Source: Flavisphingopyxis soli (GTDB lineage: Bacteria > Pseudomonadota > Alphaproteobacteria > Sphingomonadales > Sphingomonadaceae). Taken from it: a stretch of DNA of 64,000 nt. The stretch covers positions 1-64,000 of the forward strand of contig NZ_VOPY01000003.1 in assembly GCF_007995095.1 (NCBI RefSeq). The letters run 5' to 3'. The notes beneath the pieces were generated by a model. The model ran no database searches, was not told the origin of the DNA, and was given only the letters and a program-made list of their open reading frames with translations. A program made the position numbers and the translations under genes. Positions 27,597-32,483 of this stretch are shown piece after piece; positions within the stretch are counted from its first letter, which is position 1, and each line of letters begins with the position of its first letter.

Positions 27597-27634
27597 CATT
27601 GGCGTGAAGGCCACCGCGCTTTATGGCGCGGCGC

Positions 27635-29902
27635 ATGACCACAGCAACTCCCGTCCCGCCCGCCAATTCGCCCGCCATCACCCCGCAGATCGTCGCCGAA
27701 CACGGCCTCAACGAAGCGGAATACGCCCGCGTCCTCGCGGCGCTCGGGCGCGAGCCCAATATCGTCGAGCTCGGCATCTTCTCGGTGATGTGGTCCGAAC
27801 ATTGCAGCTACAAGAGCTCGCGCCTCCATCTCAAGAAGCTCCCGACGACGGGCCCGCAGGTCATCTGCGGCCCCGGCGAGAACGCCGGCGTCGTCGATAT
27901 CGGCGCCGGGCCGAACGGCACGAAACTCGCCGCGATCTTCAAGATGGAGAGCCACAACCACCCGAGTTACATCGAACCCTATCAGGGTGCGGCAACCGGC
28001 GTCGGCGGTATCTTGCGCGACGTGTTCACGATGGGCGCGCGTCCCGTCGCCAACATGAACGCGCTGCGCTTCGGCTCGCCCGACCACCCCAAGACGCGCC
28101 ACCTCGTCGCCGGCGTCGTCCACGGCATCGGCGGCTACGGCAATTGCGTCGGCGTGCCGACGGTCGGCGGTGAGGTCAATTTCCACCCCGCCTACGACGG
28201 CAATATCCTCGTCAACGCCATGACCGTCGGCATCGCCGACCAGGACAAGATTTTCTATTCGGCCGCGTCGGGCATCGGCAATTCGATCGTCTATGTCGGC
28301 TCGAAGACCGGCCGCGACGGGATCCATGGCGCGACGATGGCGAGCGCCGATTTCGCCGAGGATGCCGAGGCCAAGCGCCCGACCGTCCAGGTCGGCGATC
28401 CGTTCACCGAAAAACTGCTCATCGAGGCGTGCCTCGAACTGATGGCGACCGACGCGATCGTCGCGATCCAGGACATGGGCGCGGCGGGCCTGACGAGCTC
28501 GAGCGTCGAGATGGCCTCGGCCGGCGGTGTCGGCATCCGGCTCGACATGGACGCGGTGCCGCAGCGCGAAAGCGGCATGACCGCGTACGAAATGATGCTG
28601 TCCGAAAGCCAGGAACGCATGTTGATGGTGCTGAAGCCCGGGCGCGAGGCCGAGGCAGAGGCGATCTTCACCAAATGGGAACTCGATTTCGCGGTCATTG
28701 GCGAGGTCACCGATACCGGGCGCATGGTCTTGGAGCATCACGGCGAGGTGGTCTGCGACATCCCGCTCGCCCCGCTCGCCGACGACGCGCCGCTCTACGA
28801 CCGGCCGAGCATGAGCGCCGAGGATTACAAGGCCTGGGCCAACGTCAAACCGCTCGGCGACATTCCCGAAAGCTCCGACATCGGCGCCGACCTGTTGAAG
28901 CTGATGGCCAGCCCCGACATCGCCAGCCGCCGCTGGATCTGGGAACAATACGATACGCAGGTCGGCGCCGACACGCTCCAGCGCCCCGGCGGCGACGCCG
29001 CGGTGGTGCGCATCCACGGCACCAACCGCGCGCTCGCGATCACCACCGACTGTACCCCGCGCTATTGCTATGCCGACCCTTATGAAGGCGGTAAACAGGC
29101 GATCGCCGAGGCCTATCGCAATTTGAGCGCGGTCGGCGCGAAACCGCTCGCGACGACCAACTGCCTCAACTTCGCCAACCCCGAACGCCCCGAGATCATG
29201 GCGCAGCTGACCGGTTGCCTGAAGGGCATGAGCGAGGCGTGCATTGCGCTCGACATGCCGATCGTGTCGGGGAACGTCAGCCTCTACAACGAAAGCAAGG
29301 CCACCGGCGGTGGCAGCGCAATTTTGCCGACTCCCGCAATCGGCGCGATCGGCGTCCTTGAGGACATCGACACCATGGCGACGATCGCGTTCAAATCGGC
29401 GGGACAGGCTATCATCCTGATCGGCCACAGCGCGGGGCAGGTCGGCCAGTCACTGTGGCTGCGCGAATGCCATGGCCGCGAAGACGGCGCGCCGCCGCCC
29501 GTGGACCTTGCGATCGAGGCACGCCATGGCGACTTCGTCCGCGATCTCGTCACGCGCGGCCTCGTCAACGCGGTGCACGATTGTTCGGATGGCGGCGCGC
29601 TCGTCGCGATCACCGAAATGGCACTGGCCGGTCGCCAGGGTGCCGCGCTCGACTTGCCCGACGTTCCCAATCCTGCCGCAATCCTGTTCGGCGAAGACCA
29701 GGCGCGCTTCGTCGTCGCAACCGACGATGCCGACGCGGTGATGGCTGCTGCAAAGGCTGCGGGCATTTTCGTGGCGCGCATCGGCACCACCGGCGGCGCA
29801 GCGATCACCGTGTCGGGCAGCGAAATCCCTCTCGATGACCTGCGCAAAGCCCACGAATCCTTCTTCCCCGCACTCATGGGCAGCGACGCGGCGCTGGCTT
29901 AG
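27635..29902 (+). CDS. purL: Phosphoribosylformylglycinamidine synthase subunit PurL
   Basis: A PurL of about 755 residues, the small PurLQS type. It makes FGAM in purine synthesis with PurQ and PurS, which are not in the window. Family blocks are [35 protein letters not shown]-like text, [10 protein letters not shown] and the C-terminal [11 protein letters not shown] and HDCSDGG. The start at 27635 (MTTATPV) is chosen; ATG 27623 is also possible. Inverted repeats begin 2 bases after the stop. Confidence 0.95.
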
Positions 29903-29903
29903 T

Positions 29904-29957
29904 CTCCTCCCCATTCATGGGGAGGGGGACCGCCGACGCAGTCGGGGGTGGAGGGGA
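29904..29957 (+). repeat. Palindromic repeat copy 1 (REP-like)
   Basis: Starts 2 bases after the purL stop. It contains a stem CTCCTCCCC...GGGGAGG with a short loop and a second stem CGAC...GTCG, ending in GGTGGAGGGGAG. It is the reverse-complement layout of copies 2 and 3, so copies 1 and 2 form an inverted pair like a BIME. The GC-rich hairpin could also terminate purL transcription. Confidence 0.8.
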
Positions 29958-30008
29958 GGCGTCGCGCGCTGCCGCTGGCTTGTGCGGTACTCCACGAACC
30001 TCAGCGCA

Positions 30009-30059
30009 TTCCCCTCCACCAGCCTGCGGCTGGTCCCCCTCCCCGCAAGCGGGGAGGAG
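30009..30059 (-). repeat. Palindromic repeat copy 2 (REP-like)
   Basis: Begins TTCCCCTCCACC and contains an inner stem (AGCC, TGC, GGCT), then a stem CCTCCCCGC...GCGGGGAGG. It is inverted relative to copy 1 and ends 26 bases before the DUF559 start. Confidence 0.8.
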
Positions 30060-30085
30060 ACTGGACGCGTTTGATATCGAGAGGC

Positions 30086-30520
30086 ATGACAAGTGTCGTG
30101 ATCAAGCCGCCTCGCCAGACCGTCGTTCGCGCCCGCAAACTGCGCCGCGCCTTGAGCATTCCCGAAACGACGCTGTGGGTCCGCTTGCGCGCGCGTCCGG
30201 CAGGTTTCAAATTCCGTCGCCAACATCCTTGCGGACCATATGTGCTCGATTTTTACTGCGCGGCGGCGAAGCTCGGGATCGAGGTCGATGGCGTGGCGCA
30301 TGACATGGGCGATCGCCCAGAACGCGATGCGCGGCGCGAGCTTGTGCTGAATCAACAGGGGATCGAAATCATGCGGATTCGGGCTGGCGATATCGTGCGG
30401 GATGTCGATGCGGCGGTGGAGGCGATCGCTGCTACATGCGAAGCGCGGCGCATTCCCCTCCACCATCCGGCTTTGCCGGACGGTCCTCCTCCCCGTGCCG
30501 GGGAGGAGACAGCACGATGA
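30086..30520 (+). CDS. DUF559 domain protein, Vsr-like endonuclease fold
   Basis: A basic 144-residue protein of the DUF559 family, a PD-(D/E)XK nuclease fold related to Vsr. Motifs include ETTLWVRLRA, FKFRRQHP (43-48), the acidic residues YVLDFYC (Asp55) and EVDG (Glu67, Asp69), and IEIMRIRAGD. A GAGAGG ribosome binding site precedes the ATG. It is bracketed by palindromic repeats: copies 1 and 2 upstream, and copy 3 encoding about residues 123-141. The coding frame runs right through copy 3. The TGA overlaps the next ATG by 4 bases. Activity is unknown. Confidence 0.85.
   Translation: MTSVVIKPPRQTVVRARKLRRALSIPETTLWVRLRARPAGFKFRRQHPCGPYVLDFYCAAAKLGIEVDGVAHDMGDRPERDARRELVLNQQGIEIMRIRAGDIVRDVDAAVEAIAATCEARRIPLHHPALPDGPPPRAGEETAR
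30453..30508 (-). repeat. Palindromic repeat copy 3, inside the DUF559 3' end
   Basis: Same orientation as copy 2, sharing the lead-in GCGCATTCCCCTCCACCA. It has an inner stem (TCCGGC...GCCGGA) and a terminal stem CCTCCCCG...CGGGGAGG. It lies within the coding frame of the DUF559 gene, and its terminal GGGGAGGAG forms the Shine-Dalgarno sequence of the following flavoprotein gene. Confidence 0.8.
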
Positions 30521-31191
30521 AACCGCACGCCACCGTCCCCTATGAAGCGCTGCCAGAGCTGAGTGACGCGGAGCGCATCGCGCGCGCCAGCGCCTTCCGC
30601 GACGCGATCGCCACGCGCCACAGCTGCCGGATGTTCTCCGACGCGCCCGTGCCGCGCGCGGTGATCGAACAGGCGATCCTCGCCGCCGGCACCGCTCCGT
30701 CGGGCGCCAACCACCAGCCGTGGCATTTCGCGGTAATCGAAAGCGCCGCGAAGAAACGCGCGCTGCGCGAGGCGGCCGAGGTCGAGGAGCGCGAATTCTA
30801 TGGCGGCAAGGCGTCGCAGGAGTGGATCGACGCACTCGCGCCCTTGGGCACCGACGAGACCAAGCCCTATCTCGAAACCGCGCCCTATCTGATCTGCATC
30901 TTCGGCCAGCGCCGCGGCGGCATCGATCCGGGCGACGACAAGCAGAATTACTACGTCACCGAAAGCGTCGGCATCGCCACCGGCTACCTGATCGCGGCGC
31001 TCCACGCGGCGGGCCTCGCGACGCTGACGCACACGCCCAACCCGATGAAGTTCCTCAACGCGCTGTGCGACCGCCCGGGATCCGAAAAGCCGATGATGGT
31101 CCTCGTCGTCGGCAAGGTTGCGGACAGTGCGACGATCCCGCTCCATGCGACGCACAAGAAGCCGCTGGACCGCATCGCCTCCTGGCTCTAG
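30517..31191 (+). CDS. Nitroreductase-fold flavoprotein, iodotyrosine-deiodinase-like
   Basis: A 224-residue FMN-binding protein of the nitroreductase superfamily. It starts with RHSCRMFSDAPVP and APSGANHQPWHF. It aligns by eye with mammalian iodotyrosine deiodinase: the key residues match as Glu91, Tyr95 and Lys116 (EREFY, then K 21 residues after Tyr). Later blocks agree too: TAPYLICIF, ESVGIATGYLIAALHAAGLATLT and KKPLDRI at the C-terminus. It may reductively dehalogenate halotyrosines or similar phenols. The ATG at 30517 overlaps the DUF559 stop; an SD (GGGGAGGAG) comes from repeat 3. Confidence 0.82.
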   Translation: MKPHATVPYEALPELSDAERIARASAFRDAIATRHSCRMFSDAPVPRAVIEQAILAAGTAPSGANHQPWHFAVIESAAKKRALREAAEVEEREFYGGKASQEWIDALAPLGTDETKPYLETAPYLICIFGQRRGGIDPGDDKQNYYVTESVGIATGYLIAALHAAGLATLTHTPNPMKFLNALCDRPGSEKPMMVLVVGKVADSATIPLHATHKKPLDRIASWL

Positions 31192-31220: not shown

Positions 31221-32483
31221 ATGGCGACGACAACACCTGCCGGACTGCAGCGTTTCACCAGTCTCGACGCCATCCGCGGTGTGGCGGTGATGGGCATTCT
31301 GGCGATGAACATCTACGCTTTCGCCACCCCCGACCCCGGCTATACCAACCCCGCCGCGGTGGGCGACGACACGGGCGGCAATGTCCTCGTCTGGTTGCTC
31401 GATTTCCTGTTCTTCGACAGCAAGATGCGCGGCCTGTTCTCGATGATGTTCGGCGCCTCGACGCTGCTCGTGATCGAACGCGCGCTGGCCTATGGCCTCA
31501 GCGGCGCGAAGGTCCATTATTCCCGCATGGTCTGGCTGCTGATCCTCGGCCTCGCCCATTTCTACCTGATCTGGTGGGGCGACATCCTCGTTCTCTATGC
31601 GCTGTGCGGCATGTTGCTGTTCTTCTTTCGCAACCTTTCGATCCAGGCGCTGCGGCGCTGGGCGATCGGCTTGCTGATCGTCTCGGCGCTGTATTTCGGA
31701 TCGTTTTTCGGCAGCGCCGCGCTGATGCGCGCCGGCGTCGTCGAACCGCCCGCCGCCATGGCCCGGGCGATCGTCGAGATGAACGACAAGTTTGGGCCGC
31801 ACAGTCCCGATGTCGCTACCACGCGTACGCTGTATCGTTCGGACTACAGGACGATCGCGGGCAACCGGATCTTCGAAAAGACCGCCGAGCCGTTTGCCGG
31901 CTTCATGGCCTTCGGCTGGGAGACGCTGGGGCTGATGCTGATCGGCATGATCATGTTCAAATCGGGCTTCTTTACCGGCCAGTGGGACAGCGCCCGCTAC
32001 CGCAAGTGGCTTATTGCCTGCTGGGGCGTCGCGATCCCCGCCAACCTGCTCTTGGCCTGGTACCAGCTGTCAGACGGTTACAGCGGCGTATCGACGCTGT
32101 TTGCGACCCTCGTGCTGTCGATGCCGTTCGATGTCATGATGGCGATCGGCTGGGCGGCGCTGGTCATCCTCGTCATCCGGCAAGCGCGCTACGCCCGGCT
32201 CGACGCGCGGCTCGCGGCAACGGGGCGGATGGCGTTTACCAACTATCTGGTGACCAGCCTGGTGATGACGACGATCTTCTACGGCTATGGCCTGTCGCTG
32301 TTCGGCGAATTCCACCGCCTCGCGCTGCAACTCTTCGTCCTCGCGATGTGGGCGGCGATGCTGGCCTGGTCGAAACCCTGGCTCGATCGCTATACCTACG
32401 GCCCGTTCGAATGGTTGTGGCGTAGCCTGTCGCGCTGGCGTTTCCAGCCGATGCTGCGGCGCGCACCGGTCGGCGGCGCCTGA
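31221..32483 (+). CDS. DUF418 family membrane protein
   Basis: A 420-residue integral membrane protein with about 8-10 hydrophobic spans. The family phrases are LDAIRGVAVMGILAMNIYAF, LDFLFFDSKMRGLFSMMFGAS and GRMAFTNYLVTSL. The DUF418 family is of unknown role, possibly linked to transport or acylation. A GGGGGAGG ribosome binding site precedes the ATG, 29 bases after the flavoprotein gene, which suggests co-transcription. Confidence 0.85.
   Translation: MATTTPAGLQRFTSLDAIRGVAVMGILAMNIYAFATPDPGYTNPAAVGDDTGGNVLVWLLDFLFFDSKMRGLFSMMFGASTLLVIERALAYGLSGAKVHYSRMVWLLILGLAHFYLIWWGDILVLYALCGMLLFFFRNLSIQALRRWAIGLLIVSALYFGSFFGSAALMRAGVVEPPAAMARAIVEMNDKFGPHSPDVATTRTLYRSDYRTIAGNRIFEKTAEPFAGFMAFGWETLGLMLIGMIMFKSGFFTGQWDSARYRKWLIACWGVAIPANLLLAWYQLSDGYSGVSTLFATLVLSMPFDVMMAIGWAALVILVIRQARYARLDARLAATGRMAFTNYLVTSLVMTTIFYGYGLSLFGEFHRLALQLFVLAMWAAMLAWSKPWLDRYTYGPFEWLWRSLSRWRFQPMLRRAPVGGA

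Follow-up and report, generated by a model that had tools for sequence, protein, structure and literature searches.

An iodotyrosine deiodinase-type flavoprotein of Flavisphingopyxis soli and its relatives in the Pseudomonadota

Known deiodinases and the gene in the window

Iodotyrosine deiodinase (IYD) is a homodimer with two FMN molecules, in which a glutamate, a tyrosine, and a lysine (residues 157, 161, and 182 of the human enzyme) hold the zwitterion of the substrate. A threonine or serine at human position 239, equivalent to mouse position 235, sits near the flavin, and this threonine switch is tied to one-electron steps. The described enzymes include that of Haliscomenobacter hydrossis, which we take to belong to the Bacteroidota, a phylum other than that of the source bacterium, and that of PDB entry 6pz0, presumably from Thermotoga neapolitana.

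PDB titles name the H. hydrossis IYD (5ko7, 5ko8, and 5krd) together with FMN and mono-iodotyrosine. PMC5499721 covers the lid, the FMN, and the mechanism of IYD, and further literature on the enzyme appears as entries in the reference lists of PMC7538488, PMC8913905, and PMC6017928, the last of which includes a paper whose title refers to one amino acid that switches between dehalogenase and nitroreductase. Bacterial IYD is already established and common, and the gene described here is an ordinary, well-supported member of the family. Among the titles and opening lines of abstracts listed in searches on bacterial IYD, there was no published work on this lineage or on a deiodinase in the Sphingomonadales, a result that does not imply absence from print.

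The window, which is the whole 64,000-nucleotide stretch of the F. soli genome that was analyzed, contains a gene initially annotated as encoding an IYD-like flavoprotein. It is a real gene, with an open frame of 224 codons (Table 1). An in-frame alternative start at position 30436 gives a longer open reading frame; the start listed in Table 1 is preferred because many homologs align from residue 1 and because the motif GGAGGAG lies 8 nt upstream. The predicted protein starts near the catalytic domain, whereas mammalian IYD has an N-terminal transmembrane segment according to PMC3930498. The source genome (2.59 Mb, 4 contigs) contained a single match to the protein at an E value of <=0.001 and encodes two other PF00881 proteins. 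The closest named relatives are from the Sphingomonadales, the top one being from metagenome bin CG_2015-16_66_10, with 92% identity.

Table 1. Features of the IYD-type locus, in coordinates of the window
Feature	Coordinates	Strand	Remarks
purL-type gene (AIR synthase-related domains, phosphoribosylformylglycinamidine synthase II)	27623..29902	+	Upstream neighbor
GGAGGAG, probable ribosome-binding site	30502..30508	+	8 nt before the ATG, within a repeat copy; inferred from sequence
IYD-type FMN-dependent nitroreductase-superfamily gene	30517..31191	+	224 aa plus stop
Glu91 codon (human Glu157)	30787..30789	+	Alignment, conservation
Tyr95 codon (human Tyr161)	30799..30801	+	Alignment, conservation
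Lys116 codon (human Lys182)	30862..30864	+	Alignment, conservation
Thr173 codon (human Thr239, mouse Thr235)	31033..31035	+	Alignment, conservation
DUF418 gene	31221..32483	+	29 nt downstream of the IYD-type gene

Family placement, fold, and active-site residues

The protein matched the nitroreductase superfamily profile PF00881 with 79 bits (cut-off, 23.5) across profile positions 1 to 167 of 167. In a phmmer search of PDB sequences, the H. hydrossis IYD ranked first (187.6 bits; E = 2.5e-54) and was followed by the human and mouse enzymes (129 to 132 bits; E = 3.6e-37 for human). Lower in the ranking were the IYD of 6pz0, which is shorter and far more distant than the H. hydrossis enzyme (68.4 versus 187.6 bits), and the best nitroreductase not known as an IYD (45.6 bits). 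Judged by these sequence scores, the similarity to IYD is far above chance level.

An AlphaFold2 monomer model built from 25 sequences had a mean pLDDT of 87.9 and a pTM of 0.84, and the first 25 chains returned by Foldseek with this predicted model were all IYD. Alignment of the model with VIA-align gave Z scores of 21.3 to 24.9 for twelve IYD entries and at most 18.5 for BluB, FbiB, and nitroreductases, the next best entry being a BluB (18.5). Among the IYDs, the H. hydrossis enzyme was about 40% identical across almost the full length (chain 5ko8_B aligned with a Z score of 24.8 over 216 residues), the human (4ttb/4ttc) and mouse (3gb5/3gfd) enzymes aligned with Z scores of 22.1 to 24.9 and 38 to 42% identity by structural alignment, and 6pz0 aligned with a Z score of 21.3 over 182 residues and 28% identity. 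BluB, the C-terminal domain of FbiB, and NfnB-type nitroreductases have the common superfamily fold (Z scores of about 16 to 18.5), with 19 to 23% identity in the BluB and FbiB rows. Model confidence was lowest around residues 101 to 120 (block means of 60 and 68, with values below 50 at 109 to 112), which correspond to the IYD lid region; low confidence is no proof of mobility.

Tree sequences were selected by similarity to the query from 158 IYD-type sequences, three known IYDs, and 17 other nitroreductases used as outgroups; the IYD of 6pz0 was left out. In a maximum-likelihood tree of 81 sequences, one branch (bootstrap, 93; SH-aLRT, 96) split off the 17 nitroreductases, and the protein of the window, 60 other homologs, and the three known IYDs lay on its opposite side. 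The separating branch had an SH-aLRT value of 97 in a 52-sequence tree without the six longest-branch outgroup sequences, in which 11 outgroup sequences were kept. Phylogeny had been proposed as a check in the initial annotation, and its outcome is that the IYD-type protein does not group with the sampled ordinary nitroreductases. A topology placing the known IYDs with the nitroreductases and all of the bacterial sequences opposite was not rejected (p-AU, 0.45); it may be that the known IYDs branch beside the bacterial (Pseudomonadota) sequences, as their sister group, instead of being nested inside them.

The three substrate-recognition residues of human IYD had been proposed to have counterparts in Glu91, Tyr95, and Lys116, and this correspondence held in a gapless phmmer alignment, numbered by equating model residue 5 with human residue 71. 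A further residue, Thr173, which was absent from the initial annotation, falls in the alignment at the position of Thr239 in the human enzyme and Thr235 in the mouse enzyme. All four residues were invariant in 158 of 158 distinct IYD-type sequences, the window's own included, which were drawn from 169 sources and picked by similarity alone. The H. hydrossis enzyme likewise has the Glu/Tyr/Lys set and an LTHTP block with the threonine. The comparison nitroreductases comprised two proteins from the source genome and fifteen from genomes of the family, most of them without further typing. In a joint alignment, 8 of these 17 had Glu and Tyr in the aligned columns, inside loops with insertions; Glu, Tyr, and Lys occurred together in 1/17, and the full set with Thr occurred in none (0/17). 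Glu and Tyr on their own are nondiagnostic and, as alignment evidence, weak, whereas the full set with Thr, aligned without gaps, is strong evidence. The agreement claimed for the C-terminal block amounts to similarity and not identity, the motif being KKPLDRI here and RKPLDQI in human IYD.

PMC3930498 lists R96, R97, S98, R100, P123, S124, T235, and R275 as FMN contacts of mouse IYD. Six of the eight are identical here; His35 replaces Arg97, and Lys214 replaces Arg275. At positions 35 and 36 the H. hydrossis enzyme has Arg and Thr, and the protein described here has His and Ser. Among the 158 sequences, position 35 was Arg in 100, His in 56, Cys in 1, and a gap in 1, and position 214 was Lys in 146 and Arg in 12. 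His35 and Lys214 appear to be usual variants within the bacterial branch and not signs of a broken site. Sequence rank, fold rank, the invariant residues together with Thr173, and the trees all support the initial identification of an IYD-like flavoprotein and the placement of the protein in the IYD group.

Gene neighborhood, distribution, and the search for a partner

Neighborhoods were compared across 81 loci, consisting of the 80 best matches and the window; 16 of these loci come, clearly or probably, from other orders. Of the 81 loci, 61 had a purL-type cluster upstream in the same orientation, and a DUF418-type gene downstream was recurrent but not universal (32/81). That the IYD-type and DUF418 genes are cotranscribed is a guess. 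Outside the family, no neighbor cluster occurred in more than 8 of 84 loci once a frame overlapping the IYD gene (52 loci) was set aside; these comprise 68 loci plus the 16 from other orders and include a few duplicates (e.g., L039 and L137). Any one Pfam family matched at most 3 of the 80 adjacent open reading frames on the same strand; these 80 are the same-strand subset of 78 upstream and 84 downstream frames, each the longest within 400 nt, and some of them may be shadow frames. An operon or neighborhood clue to the substrate was rejected, as no halogen- or tyrosine-linked neighbor recurred.

Between the purL-type and IYD-type genes of the window lies a short DUF559 frame (29948 to 30520) whose stop overlaps the start of the IYD-type gene. 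Same-direction repeat copies occur near both ends of this frame (33 nt at 85% identity and then 18 nt at 89%), together with a 31-nt inverted repeat at 84% identity (29901-29931/30032-30062). The repeat core, GCGCATTCCCCTCCACCA, was found as an exact match in the genome only in the two copies near the ends of the DUF559 frame, and one further copy had two mismatches; a long repeat pattern had no matches in the window. The DUF559 frame and its repeats may be a small inserted cassette, the right repeat of which may supply the ribosome-binding site of the IYD-type gene.

Homologs of the protein were present in 72 of 199 genomes of the family (best E values of <=9.7e-24), according to a list compiled by hand that counts a match interrupted by a stop (G027) and a fragmentary match (G082). 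At an E value of <=1e-20, homologs were found in 39/385 genomes of the class and 46/398 genomes of the phylum, draws that share some genomes with the family set. A quick tree of purL was made for 101 genomes hand-picked from the 199 (49 with and 52 without the gene); the presence of IYD required 11 changes on the best tree, compared with 33.9 in shuffles, and 9 of these changes were forced by well-supported branches. The gene is therefore inherited for the most part, although it has been lost or gained repeatedly. Presence also differs within one genus (e.g., G005 and G098), and this mixture, together with cultured relatives that carry the gene, such as Qipengyuania citrea and Sphingorhabdus profundilacus, makes a gene-removal growth comparison feasible.

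Two homologs appear to have decayed. One (G027:C1:2387606-2388049) matched only residues 7 to 149 and has an internal stop, and the other (G913:C12:152868-153526) is in two pieces in different frames.

Flavin-dependent halogenases were considered as a possible partner by using Trp_halogenase (PF04820), from a list compiled by hand (138 matches less 22 weak ones, with at most 7 candidates scored per genome). Among the 199 family genomes, 60 had both IYD and a halogenase, 12 had IYD only (genome G000 among them, without a strong halogenase), 56 had a halogenase only, and 71 had neither. The raw association (60/72 IYD genomes versus 56/127 others) gave a Fisher p of 4e-8. Under phylogenetic control on the 101-genome purL tree, which yielded 9 independent pairs, the halogenase differed in the same direction as IYD in 1.5 pairs, in the opposite direction in 0.8, and not at all in 6.6 (averages), and the median sign-test p was 1, with so few differing pairs that significance was hardly reachable. 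A link between IYD and flavin halogenases was unsupported after this control, a low-power test that does not disprove it. With the same limit of 7 candidates scored per genome, Trp_halogenase had no match in the source genome or in one congener. A search with heme peroxidase (PF03098) also returned no match, an uninformative result because the control genomes were silent as well. The source genome does contain a 4-hydroxyphenylpyruvate dioxygenase (398 bits), by which tyrosine released through dehalogenation could be degraded.

Proposed function

The best reading of the alignments and the predicted model, and one that we consider quite probable, is that the protein uses FMN to remove halogen reductively from tyrosine-like phenols halogenated at the ortho position; the purified protein would probably dehalogenate iodotyrosine. 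The initial annotation is right on the family and the residues and reasonable on this function. By analogy with known IYDs, the gene product would be a soluble flavoprotein in which two subunits bind two FMN molecules and the flavin, once reduced, stacks against the phenol ring of the substrate. Glu91, Tyr95, and Lys116 would hold the charged end of the amino acid and close the mobile lid, and Thr173 would steady the flavin semiquinone so that the halide leaves by stepwise one-electron transfer, yielding tyrosine and halide. In the host, the enzyme would probably act on iodo-, bromo-, or chlorotyrosine (or on similar phenols) that the cell imports from its environment or that arises through oxidative damage, removing the halogen and returning tyrosine to metabolism, where the dioxygenase could take its carbon onward. 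The dehalogenase reading is weakened by the replacements at positions 35 and 214, by the lack of halogen- or tyrosine-linked neighbors and of a halogenase match in the genome, and by the occurrence of Glu and Tyr in 8/17 other nitroreductases.

A less likely explanation is that the IYD fold binds a phenolic amino acid and the main task of the protein is another reduction (of a nitro group, a quinone, or an unsaturated aromatic), with dehalogenation as a side activity. It would fit the absence of a recurrent halogen-related neighbor, the missing halogenase match in the source genome and missing association under the low-power phylogenetic control, and the 11 presence changes on the 101-genome tree, which resemble those of an accessory function; the strict conservation of Glu/Tyr/Lys and Thr173 among homologs of about 50 to 92% identity instead points to selection that maintains one-electron chemistry and the use of a tyrosine-like ligand. 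That the protein is an ordinary FMN nitroreductase or a quinone or flavin reductase of the NfnB, YdjA, or BluB kind, merely resembling IYD, is very improbable: its membership in PF00881, its weak match to the BluB model TIGR02476 (51.5 bits, below the threshold of 150), the aligned Glu and Tyr of 8/17 nitroreductases, and the departure of His35 and Lys214 from mouse IYD would be compatible with such an enzyme, but the protein scored below the cut-off of every one of the 8 listed NCBIfam models, the best non-IYD match in the PDB scored 45.6 against 187.6 bits, the full residue set with Thr173 separates 158/158 IYD-type sequences from 0/17 nitroreductases, and the trees set all 17 apart (93/96; SH-aLRT of 97 with 11 outgroup sequences), including the two paralogs from the same genome.

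We suggest, tentatively and as the less probable case, that the IYD branch of the Pseudomonadota has a natural function unrelated to iodide salvage that is selected in about one-third of the family (72/199) without a dedicated partner. Examples of such a function would be the routine repair of tyrosine that oxidants have chlorinated or brominated or the reduction of a nonhalogenated phenolic amino acid.

With this gene, the bacterial IYDs gain a further well-supported member, and its value lies in the question of what purpose IYD serves in bacteria. The survey, with its adjacency to purL, its changes in presence, its lack of a fixed partner in loci from other families, and no tie to flavin halogenases shown after phylogenetic control, provides a starting point on the role of IYD in bacteria.
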